Shown: in pieces, positions 22,526-33,993 of the stretch
Layout: each line of letters begins with the position of its first letter
Position numbering within the stretch: the stretch's first letter is position 1
Assembly (NCBI GenBank): GCA_947427285.1
Contig: CANEHE010000002.1
Location: forward strand, 1-64,000
DNA: 64,000 nt
Direction: 5' to 3'
From: an uncultured Porphyromonadaceae bacterium
Lineage (GTDB): Bacteria; Bacteroidota; Bacteroidia; Bacteroidales; Muribaculaceae
Notes under the pieces: generated by a model
Told to the model about the DNA's origin: nothing
Databases searched by the model: none
The model's input: the letters and a program-made list of their open reading frames with translations, nothing else
Program-made: the position numbers and the translations under genes

Positions 22526-22774
22526 TCAGTAGTTAGAAGCGATCTCTTCTATAGCGGCATCAAAAAGCCGCCATTCGCCTGGCCTGTCTATGTCTGCCTC
22601 CATTAGATCCATGATATCATAATAGTCACGTTCCGGAAAATCTTCCTCATCCGTAATACGGACAGAAAGTGTGGCCGGATCTATCTCAAGCATCGAGTTG
22701 TCGGAATATGCACCGTCGCAAGATGCAAATTCTTCAGCAATCTCTGCTATTTTTTTCTTCAGTTCCTGATTCAT
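22526..22774 (-). CDS. Small very acidic protein encoded with clpC
   Basis: An 82-residue protein with 23 Asp/Glu and 7 Lys/Arg. It has a helical start (NQELKKKIAEIAEEFASC), a central strand-like stretch (SMLEIDPATLSVRITDEEDF) and a helical end (WRLFDAAIEEIASNY). There is no signal peptide and I recognise no family. It starts 16 bases after the clpC stop and shares the terminator hairpin, so the two are co-expressed. An adaptor or inhibitor of ClpC would fit this context, but that is a guess from position and charge only. Confidence 0.75.
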   Translation of the reverse strand: MNQELKKKIAEIAEEFASCDGAYSDNSMLEIDPATLSVRITDEEDFPERDYYDIMDLMEADIDRPGEWRLFDAAIEEIASNY

Positions 22775-25430: not shown

Positions 25431-25584
25431 TTATATTGACTTAATTTATTTCTGAATTATTTGCTACCATCAAAGAATGATGTCACGGTGTTGTCACATT
25501 CCCAATTTCATTCAGACAAAATATATTCTGAGCAGATTAGAGCGACATACCATATATATAAATGGCTTTTTGCATCTAATGTTT

Positions 25585-25600
25585 TGCAAATGTCGTGCCA
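25585..25600 (-). promoter_or_regulatory. Sigma-54 (-24/-12) promoter facing clpC
   Basis: On the minus strand the sequence is TGGCACG-ACAT-TTGCA (25600 to 25585). It matches the RpoN consensus TGGCACG-N4-TTGCA at every defined position, with the invariant GG (25599-25598) and GC (25587-25586) exactly 10 bases apart. Transcription would start near 25574, about 144 bases before clpC. I find no TAnnTTTG box on this strand between the site and the gene. Confidence 0.65.
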
Positions 25601-25707
25601 AAACATCCGACACATTATGATATCAATTGTTTTTACAAATTTGTTTTGATTTTTTGGGAATGTTTAAATTACATTTTAATACATCATCGGTGTTATATTA
25701 TAGGTTT

Positions 25708-25723
25708 TGGCACGGATTTTGAT
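25708..25723 (+). promoter_or_regulatory. Sigma-54-like promoter facing htpG (imperfect)
   Basis: On the plus strand TGGCACG-GATT-TTGAT has the full -24 element and correct spacing, but the -12 GC is GA. Transcription would start near 25733, about 60 bases before the htpG ATG. The 11-base core GTTTTGGCACG is shared exactly, in inverted orientation, with the clpC-facing site. A perfect palindrome ACAAATTTGT (25635-25644) lies between the two and is a possible activator site. No TAnnTTTG box is present for htpG. Confidence 0.5.
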
Positions 25724-25793
25724 ATGGTTTAGAGATAGCCGCACGATCTCATCATACGGCTTGATTGTTGTAAACTAAAAAATAACATATATT

Positions 25794-27935: not shown

Positions 27936-30900
27936 TTATCTCACAATAACTTTACGTGAACCTACCACATATATCCCTTGTGGCAATTCGGTAATTTCAG
28001 ATTTCTCAAGTCCAAGACCTACAAGAGTTCCGTCGAGTCTGTATACATCCGCTTTCCCTTCAATGGCTGTCACTTCATCGACAGATGCGGGAATATCCAC
28101 AATCTCAATTCTTGCTTTTCCATTGGCACCATTCAGAGCCGGGAGAGAATACGGATGGAAGGCATAGTCTGTCTTTTCCTCTCCGCCATTTATGGAGTAG
28201 ATAATCTGTGCACACTTCCCATTTGGGATTGTCACATTGATGACAGCCTGTTCTTCCGGACTGACATAATATGGGGCATAAGGTTTGTCGGTAGTCTGGT
28301 CAATAGCGAGATCTCCGAGAAGTTCCACATCACCGACAAATGTAAATTCCCAAGAACCGAACGCAAACTCATTCCACTGTGGGGCACGCTTGAACAGATT
28401 GGCGGCCTTGTCATTTACCGAAAGAGTTATTCCTCCTATCTGACCGGGAGCAAACGCATATTTCGAAAGGGTCATCGGTTGGTCTGCCCTCACGTCAAGA
28501 CGTGACAGAGAAGTGCTACCGTAGAACTGACCGCTGCAGATATCGGTAATTGTTCCAGGGATGGAAAGAGAAGTCAGTTTGTCTGCAATTATAAAGGCCG
28601 CACTGCCTATCCGTCTGAACTCTACTACACCGTTTGTTTCCGGTACTTCCACCTCTCCTTCAAACTGAGAATACTTTGGAGCGCAAAGCTGTACGAAAGT
28701 AACATTATCAGTACGGAACGCATCATATACAAGTCCATTCTGTTCCTGACCTGCCGCATAGACTGTAAACGGCCATTTACCGGAAACATCAACTTTCTGG
28801 GATTGACCATCAATCGTTTCAGTATTAGTAATCACCCAGTAATATTCTCCAGGCATCTTGATAGTACTATTGACAGAGAATGGACCTATCCCAACAGTCA
28901 TCACAGAGTCTGTAAGGGCAAACGGGTTAAGCGTAAGTGCTCCGAAAGACTTGTCATCTGAAGCTCGGAAAATGTTTATGCTGAGTTGTGTGGTCACAGA
29001 ACCTGCAGAAGGATTCGTCTTATGCAGGGTACAATTCAGTGTTACCGCATCCTTGAAATCAACAAGTCCGGCTGTCACATTATCCACATATATGCTGTGA
29101 CCTTTAATATCAACCGATTCACCATTCTCAAGTTTCAATTCATAAGAATTATCCACAACAAGATTGTCTGCCTGAGTGACACGAACGATATAATCGCCAG
29201 CCTCAAGTCCCAGTATGCGTGCAAAATCAATTCTCTTGGTAATTCCAGAAGGAATAGAAAGGTAGAACGGATAGGAACGAATAACCTCCGTAGGATTGGA
29301 TGATTTAGCAACTTCGACTCTTACAGTGCCTGTGAAATCGTCAGACATGTCAACATTTGTGACATCTATACCGAAAACAATAGGTAGATTGCCATATAAT
29401 TTTTCTGAAGCAGGTAGAAGGCGGCCGGGAACAAGTTTACCGGTAGGCTTTACGTCTGAATTCGAATATGACACGTTACCGTTGGATTTGGACACGGATA
29501 TATACTGACGTGTGCCGTATGGCGACTTGACTATATTCCATTCATTTTCGTCATTGCCTCTATAGGACAGATATAATTCATAAGATCCATCCGGGACAGA
29601 GGATGGTATTTCAAAGTCCATAGCAGACCATCCATTAAGAGGAGGAAGATCTACCACCTCATCAAACATTTGATAATCATATATCTTAGAGCGATCATTC
29701 AAATCTATCAGTCTTAGTCCGATATACAAACTGGCAGTATAACCTGTAGGATTGTATACGAGTCCATCTGTACCCCACAGCATTTTGTCAATCCCGTTCT
29801 GTTTCTCATAGCGTATTCCGTCAGAAGCCACCATTAGAGTCTGGTTTTTCTGAACACCGTCAGTGCGCTTTATAAGTCCTGTGTATATGCTTTGGTTGGA
29901 ATTGTAGCCGCCGTCATAAGATCCGATTCCACCTGAACCCGGGTTAAGGGAGAACAGAAGGAAATAACCGTCCTGATAGCCACCCCAACCCCAGTTGAAG
30001 TGGAAGTAGCCATTGCCTGCATACCCGTCACAAACGAATGCATGTCCCCCTTGAGAAGACGATCCGCTGTAATATATCGGCCGGCCTTGGGCAATCTCAC
30101 TATAGACCAGATTGTCCCATTCTGCCTGTGAATAGTATTCACGTAGATGATACTTCAGACTTGTGGCATCATAGCCGAAATTGTAGGTCCACGCTGGACC
30201 TACATTGAAAGAATATGCTCCTGAAGCAGAAGGACTGTAATTCATATTGACACCCATTCCACAGTAACGCATCAGACGTGCTACCGCCATACCTTCCTCT
30301 TCGGTATATGATCCTGTATAGGAATCAAGCATCTTGTCCCATTGTATATCCACTGTTAGTCCACTGAAATCAAAACCGAATGCAGTTCCCTCCGGTCTCA
30401 GAGGCCAATTGTATACCTTCATCACCTGAGCCATGGCAGTGGCTACACATCCTGTCACCGATCGTTTGCCGCCGACAAGAGGACATACATTATTGTATGG
30501 AGCATCCTGGTTCCAGGTAGTTTTGGTTATAGGCTCTACAGGCATACGGCTTGGAACCTCAGACCTGACTTTGTCATTGCCCGGATTTGATGAGAGATAT
30601 CGAGATATCTCGTCCCGGCAATTATCAAGCCACCATTGCATGTTACAGGGTATGTGGTCCGGGTCAAACTCTCCTGTTGTGGAATAACCAAGTACCTGAG
30701 GGAGACGGTCATCCGCACTCACGATCGTATAACCGGCAGCCGGTGTATTTATCACATAGAAACAATTTTCATCGGCAGCTTTTGCTATATAAGCCACTTC
30801 AGCCTTCGTCGAAGAGCTGACTGTCTTAAAGCGTCCTGGAGCTGCCTTACGGAAAGCCATGGCGATTTCAATCGCCTGATTACCGTCGACAGGTGCAGCC

Positions 30901-30962
30901 ATTCCTGTAAGCGGAATAAAGGCCGCTGCAACGACACCTGTTGCAAATAATCGATATTTCAT
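27936..30962 (-). CDS. Secreted C10-family (streptopain-like) cysteine protease, downstream copy
   Basis: A 1008-residue exported protease. It has a signal peptide (about 1-22) and a Spi-like propeptide (24-140) with NCFYVINTPAAGYTIVSADDRLPQVLGYS. The peptidase domain has catalytic Cys172 (TGCVATAMAQV), His307 (GGHAFVCDGY) and the HFNWGWGG loop. Long beta-sandwich regions follow, then a BspA-type leucine-rich segment (about 795-850, LTSLSIPGTITDICSGQFYGS), and a C-terminal tail (DVYRLDGTLVG...LPQGIYVVGSRKVIVR) like type IX secretion sorting domains. Proteases of this family cleave host or dietary proteins. It lies 25 bases after a paralogue with which it forms an operon. Confidence 0.92.
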   Translation of the reverse strand: MKYRLFATGVVAAAFIPLTGMAAPVDGNQAIEIAMAFRKAAPGRFKTVSSSTKAEVAYIAKAADENCFYVINTPAAGYTIVSADDRLPQVLGYSTTGEFDPDHIPCNMQWWLDNCRDEISRYLSSNPGNDKVRSEVPSRMPVEPITKTTWNQDAPYNNVCPLVGGKRSVTGCVATAMAQVMKVYNWPLRPEGTAFGFDFSGLTVDIQWDKMLDSYTGSYTEEEGMAVARLMRYCGMGVNMNYSPSASGAYSFNVGPAWTYNFGYDATSLKYHLREYYSQAEWDNLVYSEIAQGRPIYYSGSSSQGGHAFVCDGYAGNGYFHFNWGWGGYQDGYFLLFSLNPGSGGIGSYDGGYNSNQSIYTGLIKRTDGVQKNQTLMVASDGIRYEKQNGIDKMLWGTDGLVYNPTGYTASLYIGLRLIDLNDRSKIYDYQMFDEVVDLPPLNGWSAMDFEIPSSVPDGSYELYLSYRGNDENEWNIVKSPYGTRQYISVSKSNGNVSYSNSDVKPTGKLVPGRLLPASEKLYGNLPIVFGIDVTNVDMSDDFTGTVRVEVAKSSNPTEVIRSYPFYLSIPSGITKRIDFARILGLEAGDYIVRVTQADNLVVDNSYELKLENGESVDIKGHSIYVDNVTAGLVDFKDAVTLNCTLHKTNPSAGSVTTQLSINIFRASDDKSFGALTLNPFALTDSVMTVGIGPFSVNSTIKMPGEYYWVITNTETIDGQSQKVDVSGKWPFTVYAAGQEQNGLVYDAFRTDNVTFVQLCAPKYSQFEGEVEVPETNGVVEFRRIGSAAFIIADKLTSLSIPGTITDICSGQFYGSTSLSRLDVRADQPMTLSKYAFAPGQIGGITLSVNDKAANLFKRAPQWNEFAFGSWEFTFVGDVELLGDLAIDQTTDKPYAPYYVSPEEQAVINVTIPNGKCAQIIYSINGGEEKTDYAFHPYSLPALNGANGKARIEIVDIPASVDEVTAIEGKADVYRLDGTLVGLGLEKSEITELPQGIYVVGSRKVIVR

Positions 30963-30987: not shown

Positions 30988-33900
30988 TTATTGGATAATA
31001 AATTTTCTTTTTCCGACTATATAAATGCCTGGAGACAATGATTCAATCTGAGAAGACGTTGCTTTTTTAATCACAAGAGTACCATCTATGCGATACACAT
31101 CTACCGGCACATCATCGGTTATTACTCCTTCCACGCCGCCGCTTCCTCCTTCTACAGATACAAGCACATTTCCGGTGCCGCCCTCAAGTGCGGGGAGGTG
31201 TATTTGAGTCTGATCGCGGAAAGTGCCGCTTTCGCCTGCAGAGGTAGTGTAGGATACAACAACAGTCTGAGATTCCAAAGGTTCGATTGTGAATGAAATC
31301 TCCTCTTCAGGAGATACGTAATAAGGAGAATACAACTCTCCGGACGAAGCCGTGGAAAGGCCGGAGACTATTCTACAACCATCGGAAACCACTATATTCC
31401 AATGTCCGAAATTGAATCTGTCCCATCCCCCTGTACGTTTATATATATTGGCACATCCATAAGGCACACTGACGGAAACTGATTTCCATGCGTCTTCTTT
31501 GAAGGCGTATGGAGAAAGCACTGGAGGTGTGTTGCCCCGCATATCCAATGATAATAATGCATCAGCACAATAAAATTGAGCTGCGCCTATTTCCTTTACT
31601 GACGACGGGAGAGAGAGACTTTCAACTTCAGACGCAAAAGTAAACGCATCTGATTCCAGGCCGACTACCTTATTGCCTCCTGCCATCTCGGGAATAACGA
31701 CTTTTCCGGTATAACCGCTCATTTTAGGAGCACGGACTGTCGCTTCGCCGGAAGATAAGCTGAATTCCATCTGTTGTCCTTCCGATAGGGTCACGGAATA
31801 TATTTCGGCAGGATAACGCTCACTGATTGCAATGGCGGATGAACCGGTAGGAGTGAAATAGATCTGCCACTCATACTTTCCGGGAGAAAGTGAAGACAGG
31901 TCAAGCGCGGAAAAACGGATATTGCGTGCCGCAGTAGTAAACGTATAAGTATTTTTTGAAGACCAACTTTTGATAGAAGATGATTCACCTTTTCGGAACA
32001 GTCTCATTGTAATTTTTCCACTTTGAGCTGAAATATCTGCCGAGGTAGGGATGACAGTAAAACTCAATCTCGCACCATCCGTTATATCTACTATATTGGG
32101 AGAGACTCCAATCGCACGAATCTGAGCGGAAGCATCAATACCTTCAGACTGTTCTTCAGACAGAGTCAAAGATAAGGGACTGCCCATAAGTTCCCTGCCA
32201 TCTACAGTCACGTGAATCAGATAATTTCCTGGAGCTGTATCAAATGTGGATTCCACTTCATTATGTATCGAATACCCCGCAGGAGCTCTCATGACAACAT
32301 CCTCACTCCATATCCTTTTTTCAGGAGCGATCGCAGATGTGAGATACATGGAAAGAACTCCATTGAAATCAGTTTGTCCCACATTGGAAACAATGGCCTG
32401 GGCATAGAACGGTTTATTTGACGGAGTTGTCTGGTTTGCAAAACGGATACCGTTCAGTATAAGATCCGTGACATTTCCATCTGAAGCGGAAGAAATAGAG
32501 ATCTTGCCTCCGACGACACGACAAAGAAGTTTCTGAGGAGTTCCGTATGGAGCTTTCGCATCAATCCATTCTTCCGAAGACTGATCACGATAAACGATAT
32601 TAATATCATACTCTCCATCCTGCAGATTGTCTGGCAATCTTAATGTCAGCTTCTTATACCCATAATTCGGTTTCAACTCAGCTGAAAAAGGCGTGAGAAC
32701 CGAAGAATACGAAACACCGTCTTTCCCGGAAATACGGAAAGAGATCTGAACTAACGAAGTATATGAAAGTGCATTCTTAAATATTCCCTCCGTATCGGCA
32801 CCTGTTTCAAAAGATACAGCCCACTCGTGTGCCCCGGATTCTGATGCGGCTTTTGGATATCCAGTCATCACCATAAGTGTCTGCCGCTTTCCATCGGGGT
32901 CTGTCAGCGGACGTATACCAGTAAAGCATCCCTGTGACGAATTGTAACCGCCGTCATAAGATCCTATTCCTCCCGAAGACGGATTCAGGATAAACAGACG
33001 GAAATAACCGTCCTGACTGCCTCCCCATCCCCAATTGAAATGGTAAAATCCGTTGCCGCCATATCCGTCACATACAAAAGCATGGCCCCCGGTAGGAGTA
33101 CGACCGTGGTAAAGCACCACATGTCCCTGCTTCAGATCGGAATATATCATATCTTCCCATTCGCGCTCCGAGCAATAGTCTCTAAGATTATACCGGATGG
33201 AATTGTCATAACCGAAATACTCTGTAAGAGCATTTCCAGTCTTGAAGGTCTGTGCTCCACTTGAGGAAGATGCATAATCCATGTCTACAGACATTCCGCA
33301 ATTGAGCATGAGAGTAGCTACCGCTTTTTTCTGTTCCTCGGTTGCTGTTCCGTTGTAGGAGTCAAGCATGTTCTTCCAATCAAACGAAGTACCGCTGAAA
33401 GAGAAATCGCCACGCGAACCCTCTGCTTTCAATGGATGGGAATAATGCTTCATTACCTGTGCCATAGCAGTAGCCACACAGCCCGTCACACTAATCTCTC
33501 CGGTATCCGGATCAATCGGACAAAGCATGTTGTATGGGGCATCCTGATTCCATTTGGTTGTAAGCGCAGGCGACAGCGGAACCATATCCTCAGGCCGTGA
33601 AGAGGTATATTTATATGGAGAAACAAGGAATGCATCGATCTGACGGACATACTCATCAAGCCACCACTTCATGTTTGGAGGAAGATTATCATGATCGAAT
33701 GTTCCGGAATCTGAATATCCAATTATTTCCGGAAGACGGTCGTCTGCCGATACCATGACATATCCATTTCCTGAATCACCTCCTATCACATAAAAACAGT
33801 TTTTCCCAGTTGATGACATCGCAGTATATTTAACGGTCAGATTCTCTGTATATCCTCTGGCTTTTCTGACAGAAGAATCTGAAAGAATGAATTTCCGACC

Positions 33901-33993
33901 TATCTCAACCGCATTCTGTGGAGACAAGGAAGCCGCACTGACTTCAATACAGATAGCCAGCTGGAATAAAAATAACAGATGTCGACGTGGCAT
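30988..33993 (-). CDS. Secreted C10-family (streptopain-like) cysteine protease, upstream copy
   Basis: A 1001-residue paralogue of the next gene with the same layout. It has a signal peptide (RRHLLFLFQLAICIEVSA, 1-20) and a propeptide with NCFYVIGGDSGNGYVMVSADDRLPEIIGYS. The catalytic residues are Cys172 (TGCVATAMAQV) and His304 (GGHAFVCDGY), followed by HFNWGWGGSQDGYFRLF. Beta-sandwich modules, a leucine-rich stretch (about 790-850) and a C-terminal tail (VDVYRIDGTLVI...SPGIYIVGKRKFIIQ) complete the protein. The two proteins are clearly alike through the propeptide and catalytic domain and more diverged in the middle, as after an old tandem duplication. Confidence 0.92.
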   Translation of the reverse strand: MPRRHLLFLFQLAICIEVSAASLSPQNAVEIGRKFILSDSSVRKARGYTENLTVKYTAMSSTGKNCFYVIGGDSGNGYVMVSADDRLPEIIGYSDSGTFDHDNLPPNMKWWLDEYVRQIDAFLVSPYKYTSSRPEDMVPLSPALTTKWNQDAPYNMLCPIDPDTGEISVTGCVATAMAQVMKHYSHPLKAEGSRGDFSFSGTSFDWKNMLDSYNGTATEEQKKAVATLMLNCGMSVDMDYASSSSGAQTFKTGNALTEYFGYDNSIRYNLRDYCSEREWEDMIYSDLKQGHVVLYHGRTPTGGHAFVCDGYGGNGFYHFNWGWGGSQDGYFRLFILNPSSGGIGSYDGGYNSSQGCFTGIRPLTDPDGKRQTLMVMTGYPKAASESGAHEWAVSFETGADTEGIFKNALSYTSLVQISFRISGKDGVSYSSVLTPFSAELKPNYGYKKLTLRLPDNLQDGEYDINIVYRDQSSEEWIDAKAPYGTPQKLLCRVVGGKISISSASDGNVTDLILNGIRFANQTTPSNKPFYAQAIVSNVGQTDFNGVLSMYLTSAIAPEKRIWSEDVVMRAPAGYSIHNEVESTFDTAPGNYLIHVTVDGRELMGSPLSLTLSEEQSEGIDASAQIRAIGVSPNIVDITDGARLSFTVIPTSADISAQSGKITMRLFRKGESSSIKSWSSKNTYTFTTAARNIRFSALDLSSLSPGKYEWQIYFTPTGSSAIAISERYPAEIYSVTLSEGQQMEFSLSSGEATVRAPKMSGYTGKVVIPEMAGGNKVVGLESDAFTFASEVESLSLPSSVKEIGAAQFYCADALLSLDMRGNTPPVLSPYAFKEDAWKSVSVSVPYGCANIYKRTGGWDRFNFGHWNIVVSDGCRIVSGLSTASSGELYSPYYVSPEEEISFTIEPLESQTVVVSYTTSAGESGTFRDQTQIHLPALEGGTGNVLVSVEGGSGGVEGVITDDVPVDVYRIDGTLVIKKATSSQIESLSPGIYIVGKRKFIIQ

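Follow-up and report, generated by a model that had tools for sequence, protein, structure and literature searches.

The clpC-htpG intergenic region

The window analysed here, a stretch of 64,000 bases from the draft genome of an uncultured member of the Muribaculaceae, carries two protein-quality-control genes that point away from each other (Table 1). One encodes an Hsp100 ATPase with Clp_N and AAA domains, and the other encodes HtpG, the product of which scores above the NCBIfam HtpG cut-off. The Hsp100 product scores under both the NCBIfam ClpA and ClpB cut-offs, and its putative name, ClpC, thus follows the preliminary description of this DNA. The short open reading frame after clpC may be transcribed together with it as a second gene. 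Two tandem genes on the minus strand, at 27936-30962 and 30988-33993, encode cysteine peptidases of family C10 that carry Spi inhibitor domains and have about 1000 amino acids each.

Table 1. Features of the clpC-htpG region (positions in the window)
Feature	Position	Strand	Remark
82-aa open reading frame	22526..22774	minus	directly 3' of clpC, 16-base gap; no Pfam family
clpC-type Hsp100 ATPase gene, 879 aa	22791-25430	minus	putative target of the minus-strand promoter
Putative clpC promoter, sigma-54-type -24/-12	25585..25600	minus	TGGCACGACATTTGCA; read directly and by pattern search
Spacer between the divergent promoters	25601..25707		possible place of a shared activator site; no conserved site found
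Putative htpG promoter, sigma-54-type -24/-12	25708..25723	plus	TGGCACGGATTTTGAT; read directly and by pattern search
htpG (Hsp90), 683 aa	25794-27845	plus	putative target of the plus-strand promoter

The region between the two genes spans 363 bases (25431-25793; 30% G+C) and gave no match when used as a DNA query against a plasmid collection. The RpoN consensus is TGGCAC...TTGC with a GG-N10-GC spacing, the canonical -12 element being GC. As described previously, the minus strand carries an exact consensus facing clpC and the plus strand a near match facing htpG. The former, TGGCACGACATTTGCA, read from 25600 to 25585, has no mismatch to TGGCACG-N4-TTGCA and places the -24 GG at 25599-25598 and the -12 GC at 25587-25586. 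The latter, TGGCACGGATTTTGAT, reads TGGCACG-N4-TTGAT, with the GG at 25709-25710 and the G of the -12 element at 25721; both of its mismatches fall on the last two bases, and GG-N10-G is kept with A in place of C. The GG-N10-G spacing is canonical in both sites and would place the transcript starts near 25574 for clpC and near 25734 for htpG, with predicted leaders of about 144 and 60 nucleotides. The 11-base core does form an inverted pair: in the whole window GTTTTGGCACG has a single occurrence, at 25704, and the same holds for its reverse complement, at 25594. It likewise proved correct that neither gene is faced by a TAnnTTTG housekeeping box: there is none on either strand of 25431-25793, and the whole window holds 24 and 27 such boxes over its two strands.

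Exact 12-base matches to the RpoN consensus are expected 0.0056 times in the window on both strands together. At up to two mismatches there are 10 matches against 4.25 expected, and degenerate matches by themselves are therefore little proof.

Conservation of the two sites

We searched 61 genomes: that of the window itself (G000), 36 more of its genus, and 24 that belong to the same order but to different families. Within the genus, 30 htpG and 30 clpC loci were fetched with their DNA, each set including the window's own locus, and further matches were listed without loci. The preliminary description had proposed comparing the intergenic region among relatives, and the motif is indeed kept there at a fixed N5 spacing. 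Upstream of clpC, TGGCA[CT]-N5-TTG is present in all 30 loci; upstream of htpG, [TC]GGCA[CT]-N5-TTG, which allows CGG, is present in 27 of 30. With the strict pattern TGG[CT]A[CT]-N5-TTG the counts are 30/30 for clpC and 23/30 for htpG. The three htpG misses comprise one AGGCAC-N5-TTG (L022), one TTGGCAC with GTG for TTG (L029) and one weak site (L036). Further genomes of the genus also have the site, before clpC in G018 and G028 and before htpG in G028. The genus consensus is approximately TTTGGCACG-N-TATTTG-N-TATA, its -12 TTG being a requirement of the search pattern. At -12 the TTG is followed by C in only 5 of the 27 htpG sites and 14 of the 30 clpC sites, a departure from the canonical GC.

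Several controls bear on these counts. First of all, spacings other than N5 gave 0/30 for both genes at 2, 3, 4, 6, 8 and 9 bases and 0 or 1 at 1, 7 and 10. Second, the N5 motif on the opposite strand occurs in 4 of 30 htpG and 3 of 30 clpC upstream regions; three cases per gene are the site of the divergent partner in G000, G030 and G004, and the fourth htpG case is L033. Third, none of 144 control open reading frames (at least 200 aa, taken from 11 rpoN neighbourhoods, spurious frames included) is preceded by the motif within 350 bases, and the background density in these neighbourhoods is 7 in 365,358 strand-bases. A chance resemblance to the RpoN consensus, which the frequency of degenerate matches would otherwise allow, is thus hardly credible for sites that are conserved at a fixed spacing and missing from every control frame, and we reject it.

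The weakly kept -12 C, the symmetry of the two copies and the failure to find rpoN in this draft (see below) would fit another reader of the motif, either a sigma factor of the ECF type or a regulator that binds the inverted GTTTTGGCACG pair as a dimer. However, among the genomes of the genus that list both genes the divergent arrangement is confined to G000, G030 and G004. In the others clpC and htpG lie on different contigs or more than 20 kb apart, each still with a copy facing the gene; each gene thus has a promoter of its own, with no need for the inverted pair. An inverted-repeat operator is rejected on the same observation. Moreover, only the N5 spacing is kept, and the authors of PMC9723704 attribute to sigma-54 the SM4 motif of Flavobacterium psychrophilum, whose target genes partly coincide with those described here. 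A different factor acting on these sites is therefore very unlikely in our estimation, and recognition by sigma-54 would remain the better reading.

Occurrence beyond the genus

In those other families of the order that the sample covers, the strict site is present at 16 of 19 fetched htpG loci and at 3 of 18 clpC loci. Among named Bacteroidota, the best 80 of 381 clpC relatives include 36 with the site and 44 without it, two of the 80 having less than 150 bases of upstream DNA; in the same 80, spacings of 2, 3, 4, 6, 7 and 8 bases gave 2, 0, 0, 2, 0 and 1 matches. Within the order, then, the htpG promoter occurs widely and that of clpC more patchily. Within these best 80 of 381, the site is present in clpC loci named Muribaculaceae, Bacteroides, Parabacteroides and Petrimonas, among others, and absent from those of Runella, Chitinophagales, Ignavibacteria, Balneolaceae and Flavobacteriales. 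The six closest named clpC relatives among the matches listed, at 57-63% identity, are metagenome-assembled genomes named Muribaculaceae, Porphyromonadaceae, Bacteroidales or Bacteroides, by which the family of the window would probably be Muribaculaceae.

Other genes preceded by the motif

A scan of the whole genome with TTGGCAY-N5-TTG gave 26 matches, against 12 for the backward control. Nine of the 26 lie outside open reading frames of at least 150 aa. Four of these nine precede clpC, htpG, groES (followed by groEL) and clpP; another two stand before genes whose products match no known family, and for the remaining three the downstream gene is not convincing. Because the motif stands before groES-groEL and clpP as well, sigma-54 would serve here as a stress factor for protein quality control. 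In the case of clpP (L307:698-1423) the motif lies 92 bases upstream, and ClpP may thus be co-regulated with its Clp ATPase. A site with one mismatch is found 152 bases before degP/htrA, the gene for a Do-family serine protease (L068). The second Hsp100 gene (L315), presumably clpB-like, has no site within 400 bases; dnaK, grpE and lon could not be located in this genome.

Of the two proteins of no known family, the first (L292:1609-3015, on G000:C2) has at least 469 aa, matches no Pfam or NCBIfam family and begins 108 bases after a very good site, TTTTGGCACGTTATTTGTTATAT, at 126929-126943; it is a candidate for a stress protein not so far described. The second (L294:1121-1450) has 110 aa, lies 65 bases after a TTTTTTGGCATGACAGTTGT site and has a start that, judged by eye, resembles a signal peptide.

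An enhancer-binding protein beside lptE

NtrC-type activators had been suggested as something to look for in this genome, and it encodes one strong enhancer-binding protein, of 404 aa, with a GSFTGA loop and a gene that adjoins lptE. The protein matches the sigma-54 interaction domain (PF00158, E 3.5e-65), with an AAA+ region from residue 27, and a Fis-type helix-turn-helix (HTH_8); no receiver domain was matched. The remaining PF00158 matches in the genome are two Hsp100 ATPases and one weak match. AAA+ and Fis-type helix-turn-helix domains without a receiver are also features of PspF-type proteins. The 404-aa protein is nonetheless not a PspF member, since it reaches 277.2 bits against an NCBIfam PspF cut-off of 443.55; its gene, moreover, lies beside lptE.

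The association with lptE is kept among relatives. The activator is 79% identical to that of G030, and among 18 activator loci fetched (all but one from genomes in which just one match was strong), 16 have a near full-length relative together with lptE in the same stretch. Fifteen of these 16 are open, and the sixteenth (G028) aligned over 394 residues in one frame. The remaining two loci, from G002 and G027, which are 79% and 85% complete, carry instead a different protein of 42-45% identity and no lptE. A record of Bacteroides finegoldii shows the same activator-lptE pairing.

rpoN, undetected in the draft genome

The draft assembly is 99.18% complete with 0.09% contamination, and rpoN was found in it neither with the Pfam DNA-binding domain nor with a full-length profile of 11 sequences at E values up to 10. 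The gene is present in 56 of the 61 genomes searched and in 34 of the 36 relatives of the same genus. Two genes that flank it in relatives (in 9 of 11 and 6 of 11 neighbourhoods) were not found here either; one of these searches used the protein of a single relative and had no positive control, and the other gave only weak TPR matches. The outcome resembles the absence of a block several kilobases long, which fits an assembly gap and also a deletion. An acyltransferase that lies near rpoN in G030 has a match at G000:C11:6255-7091, beyond which the genes differ. The 20 smallest contigs gave no match at E 1e-20 to the proteins of the 11 rpoN neighbourhoods, and among the other contig ends the start of C11 was examined.

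The preliminary description had named the absence of rpoN as a refutation of sigma-54 control. The gene was indeed not found in the draft; with both the sites and the activator gene preserved, and with rpoN present in all but two of the 36 relatives of the genus, we weigh this as a probable assembly gap, the likeliest reason for the result, and not as a refutation. The alternative is that the species has lost rpoN, that the sites are recent relics and that clpC and htpG run from other promoters which we do not recognise. That neither rpoN nor its two neighbours were found in so complete and clean an assembly speaks for such a loss. However, the clpC site matches the consensus exactly, groES and clpP have their sites, the activator gene is undamaged, retains the GSFTGA loop and is 79% identical to that of G030, and the clpC-htpG region offers no TAnnTTTG box. 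Furthermore, drafts of high completeness can lose single genes, since htpG itself was not found in 2 of 36 genomes that are at least 90% complete, and rpoN is undetected in two further drafts, G040 and G052. Both belong to other families and carry the htpG site; G040 is 98% complete and has 2 enhancer-binding proteins, and G052 is 96% complete and has 4. Loss of rpoN is on balance unlikely, and the gene of this species probably lies outside the assembly.

Proposed mechanism and comparison with known systems

To our knowledge, the control of heat-shock genes in Bacteroidota is little worked out. We consider it very probable that the two sites are back-to-back sigma-54 (RpoN) promoters for clpC and htpG and belong to a sigma-54 regulon for protein quality control. 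Such control had been suggested from the window alone; its conservation, the exact spacing and the other motif-bearing genes support it. Against it stand the failure to find rpoN and two of its neighbours in the assembly, the weakly kept -12 C, the scarcity of the strict clpC site in other families, the second Hsp100 gene without a site and the lack of an enhancer motif in the regions compared. The sigma-54 form of RNA polymerase would occupy the -24 GG and -12 TTG elements in a closed complex, to be opened by an enhancer-binding protein of the AAA+ type. The one strong candidate for this role in the present genome is the receiver-less 404-aa protein beside lptE, and the inducing signal may be protein or envelope stress. 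More tentatively, and with rather less than even confidence, we suggest that in this gut genus the role of sigma-54 has narrowed to that of a dedicated factor of the heat-shock kind, whereby one sigma-54 and one sensor-less, lptE-tied activator would jointly run groESL, htpG, clpC, clpP and perhaps degP. Outer-membrane stress (LPS assembly) and protein-folding stress would then share one ATP-driven switch that replaces a sigma-32-type system. The conserved sites (16 of 19 htpG loci of other families; 36 of the best 80 of 381 clpC loci), together with genomes that have a single activator, would make possible a sharp one-gene test of the chaperone response.

Sigma-54 control had been thought unusual for htpG and Clp genes, which does not hold for the Bacteroidota, where it is already known from mapped (PMC9723704) and predicted (PMC12316311) promoters in the passages used here. 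In the fish pathogen F. psychrophilum, which has a sigma-54 stress response, the SM4 motif accompanies mapped starts at groES-groEL, lon, dnaK, grpE-dnaJ, htpG, skp and clpB; starts were mapped by 5'-end RNA-seq, and promoter mutagenesis was carried out on another operon, remFG-sprCDBF (PMC9723704). According to the passages of PMC12316311, predicted sigma-54 promoters are enriched in Bacteroidota at GroEL, GroES, DnaK, DnaJ, GrpE and HSP90 (COG0326) and at the proteases COG0542, COG0466 and COG1066, and GrpE and GroES of B. thetaiotaomicron are stated, via another paper cited there, to be sigma-54-dependent. The passages drawn on from PMC7366714 and PMC10434189 contain no link of sigma-54 to these genes, and the literature searched holds no co-mention of Muribaculaceae with sigma-54 or of Bacteroidales with rpoN and clpP.

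The F. psychrophilum system and the present one agree in the -24/-12 motif at htpG, groES-groEL and a Clp ATPase gene, and in the enhancer-binding protein gene that is listed with lptE, in F. psychrophilum under one promoter (PMC9723704). They differ in three respects, as far as the passages of that paper go. First, three proteins with a sigma-54 interaction domain are predicted in F. psychrophilum, whereas one strong enhancer-binding protein is found here. Second, the Clp gene with the motif is clpB there; here it is clpC and clpP, the second Hsp100 gene being without it. Finally, the starts of F. psychrophilum are mapped, and those given above are deduced from spacing. The predicted Bacteroidia regulon of PMC12316311, on the other hand, consists of class-level statistics, and its passages deal neither with this family nor with the divergent pair or an activator linked to lptE. 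Compared with the passages of both papers, the present analysis adds clpC and clpP to the set, gives counts of conservation over the whole order and describes the single activator beside lptE.

The spacer and possible activator sites

The palindrome ACAAATTTGT, present once in the window (25635-25644), had been put forward as a possible activator site. G030, the only relative with which the region was aligned, does not have it, which speaks against this role. Across 57 regions upstream of clpC and htpG, the best real count for a shared dyad was 6, a value that shuffled sequences also reached, and no enhancer motif was found. The most over-represented 7-mers in these regions are A/T-rich, together with AGAATCG/CGATTCT, which occurs in 9 of 57 regions against 1.1 in simple base shuffles, at scattered distances from the site. 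The nine regions lie upstream of clpC in L102, L104, L107, L108 and L109 and upstream of htpG in L021, L033, L037 and L042; the excess may reflect kinship of those genomes. Between the two promoters, GTTTTGATTTTTTG at 25643-25656 is identical in G030, where most of its surroundings differ, and it may be a candidate bend or activator site.
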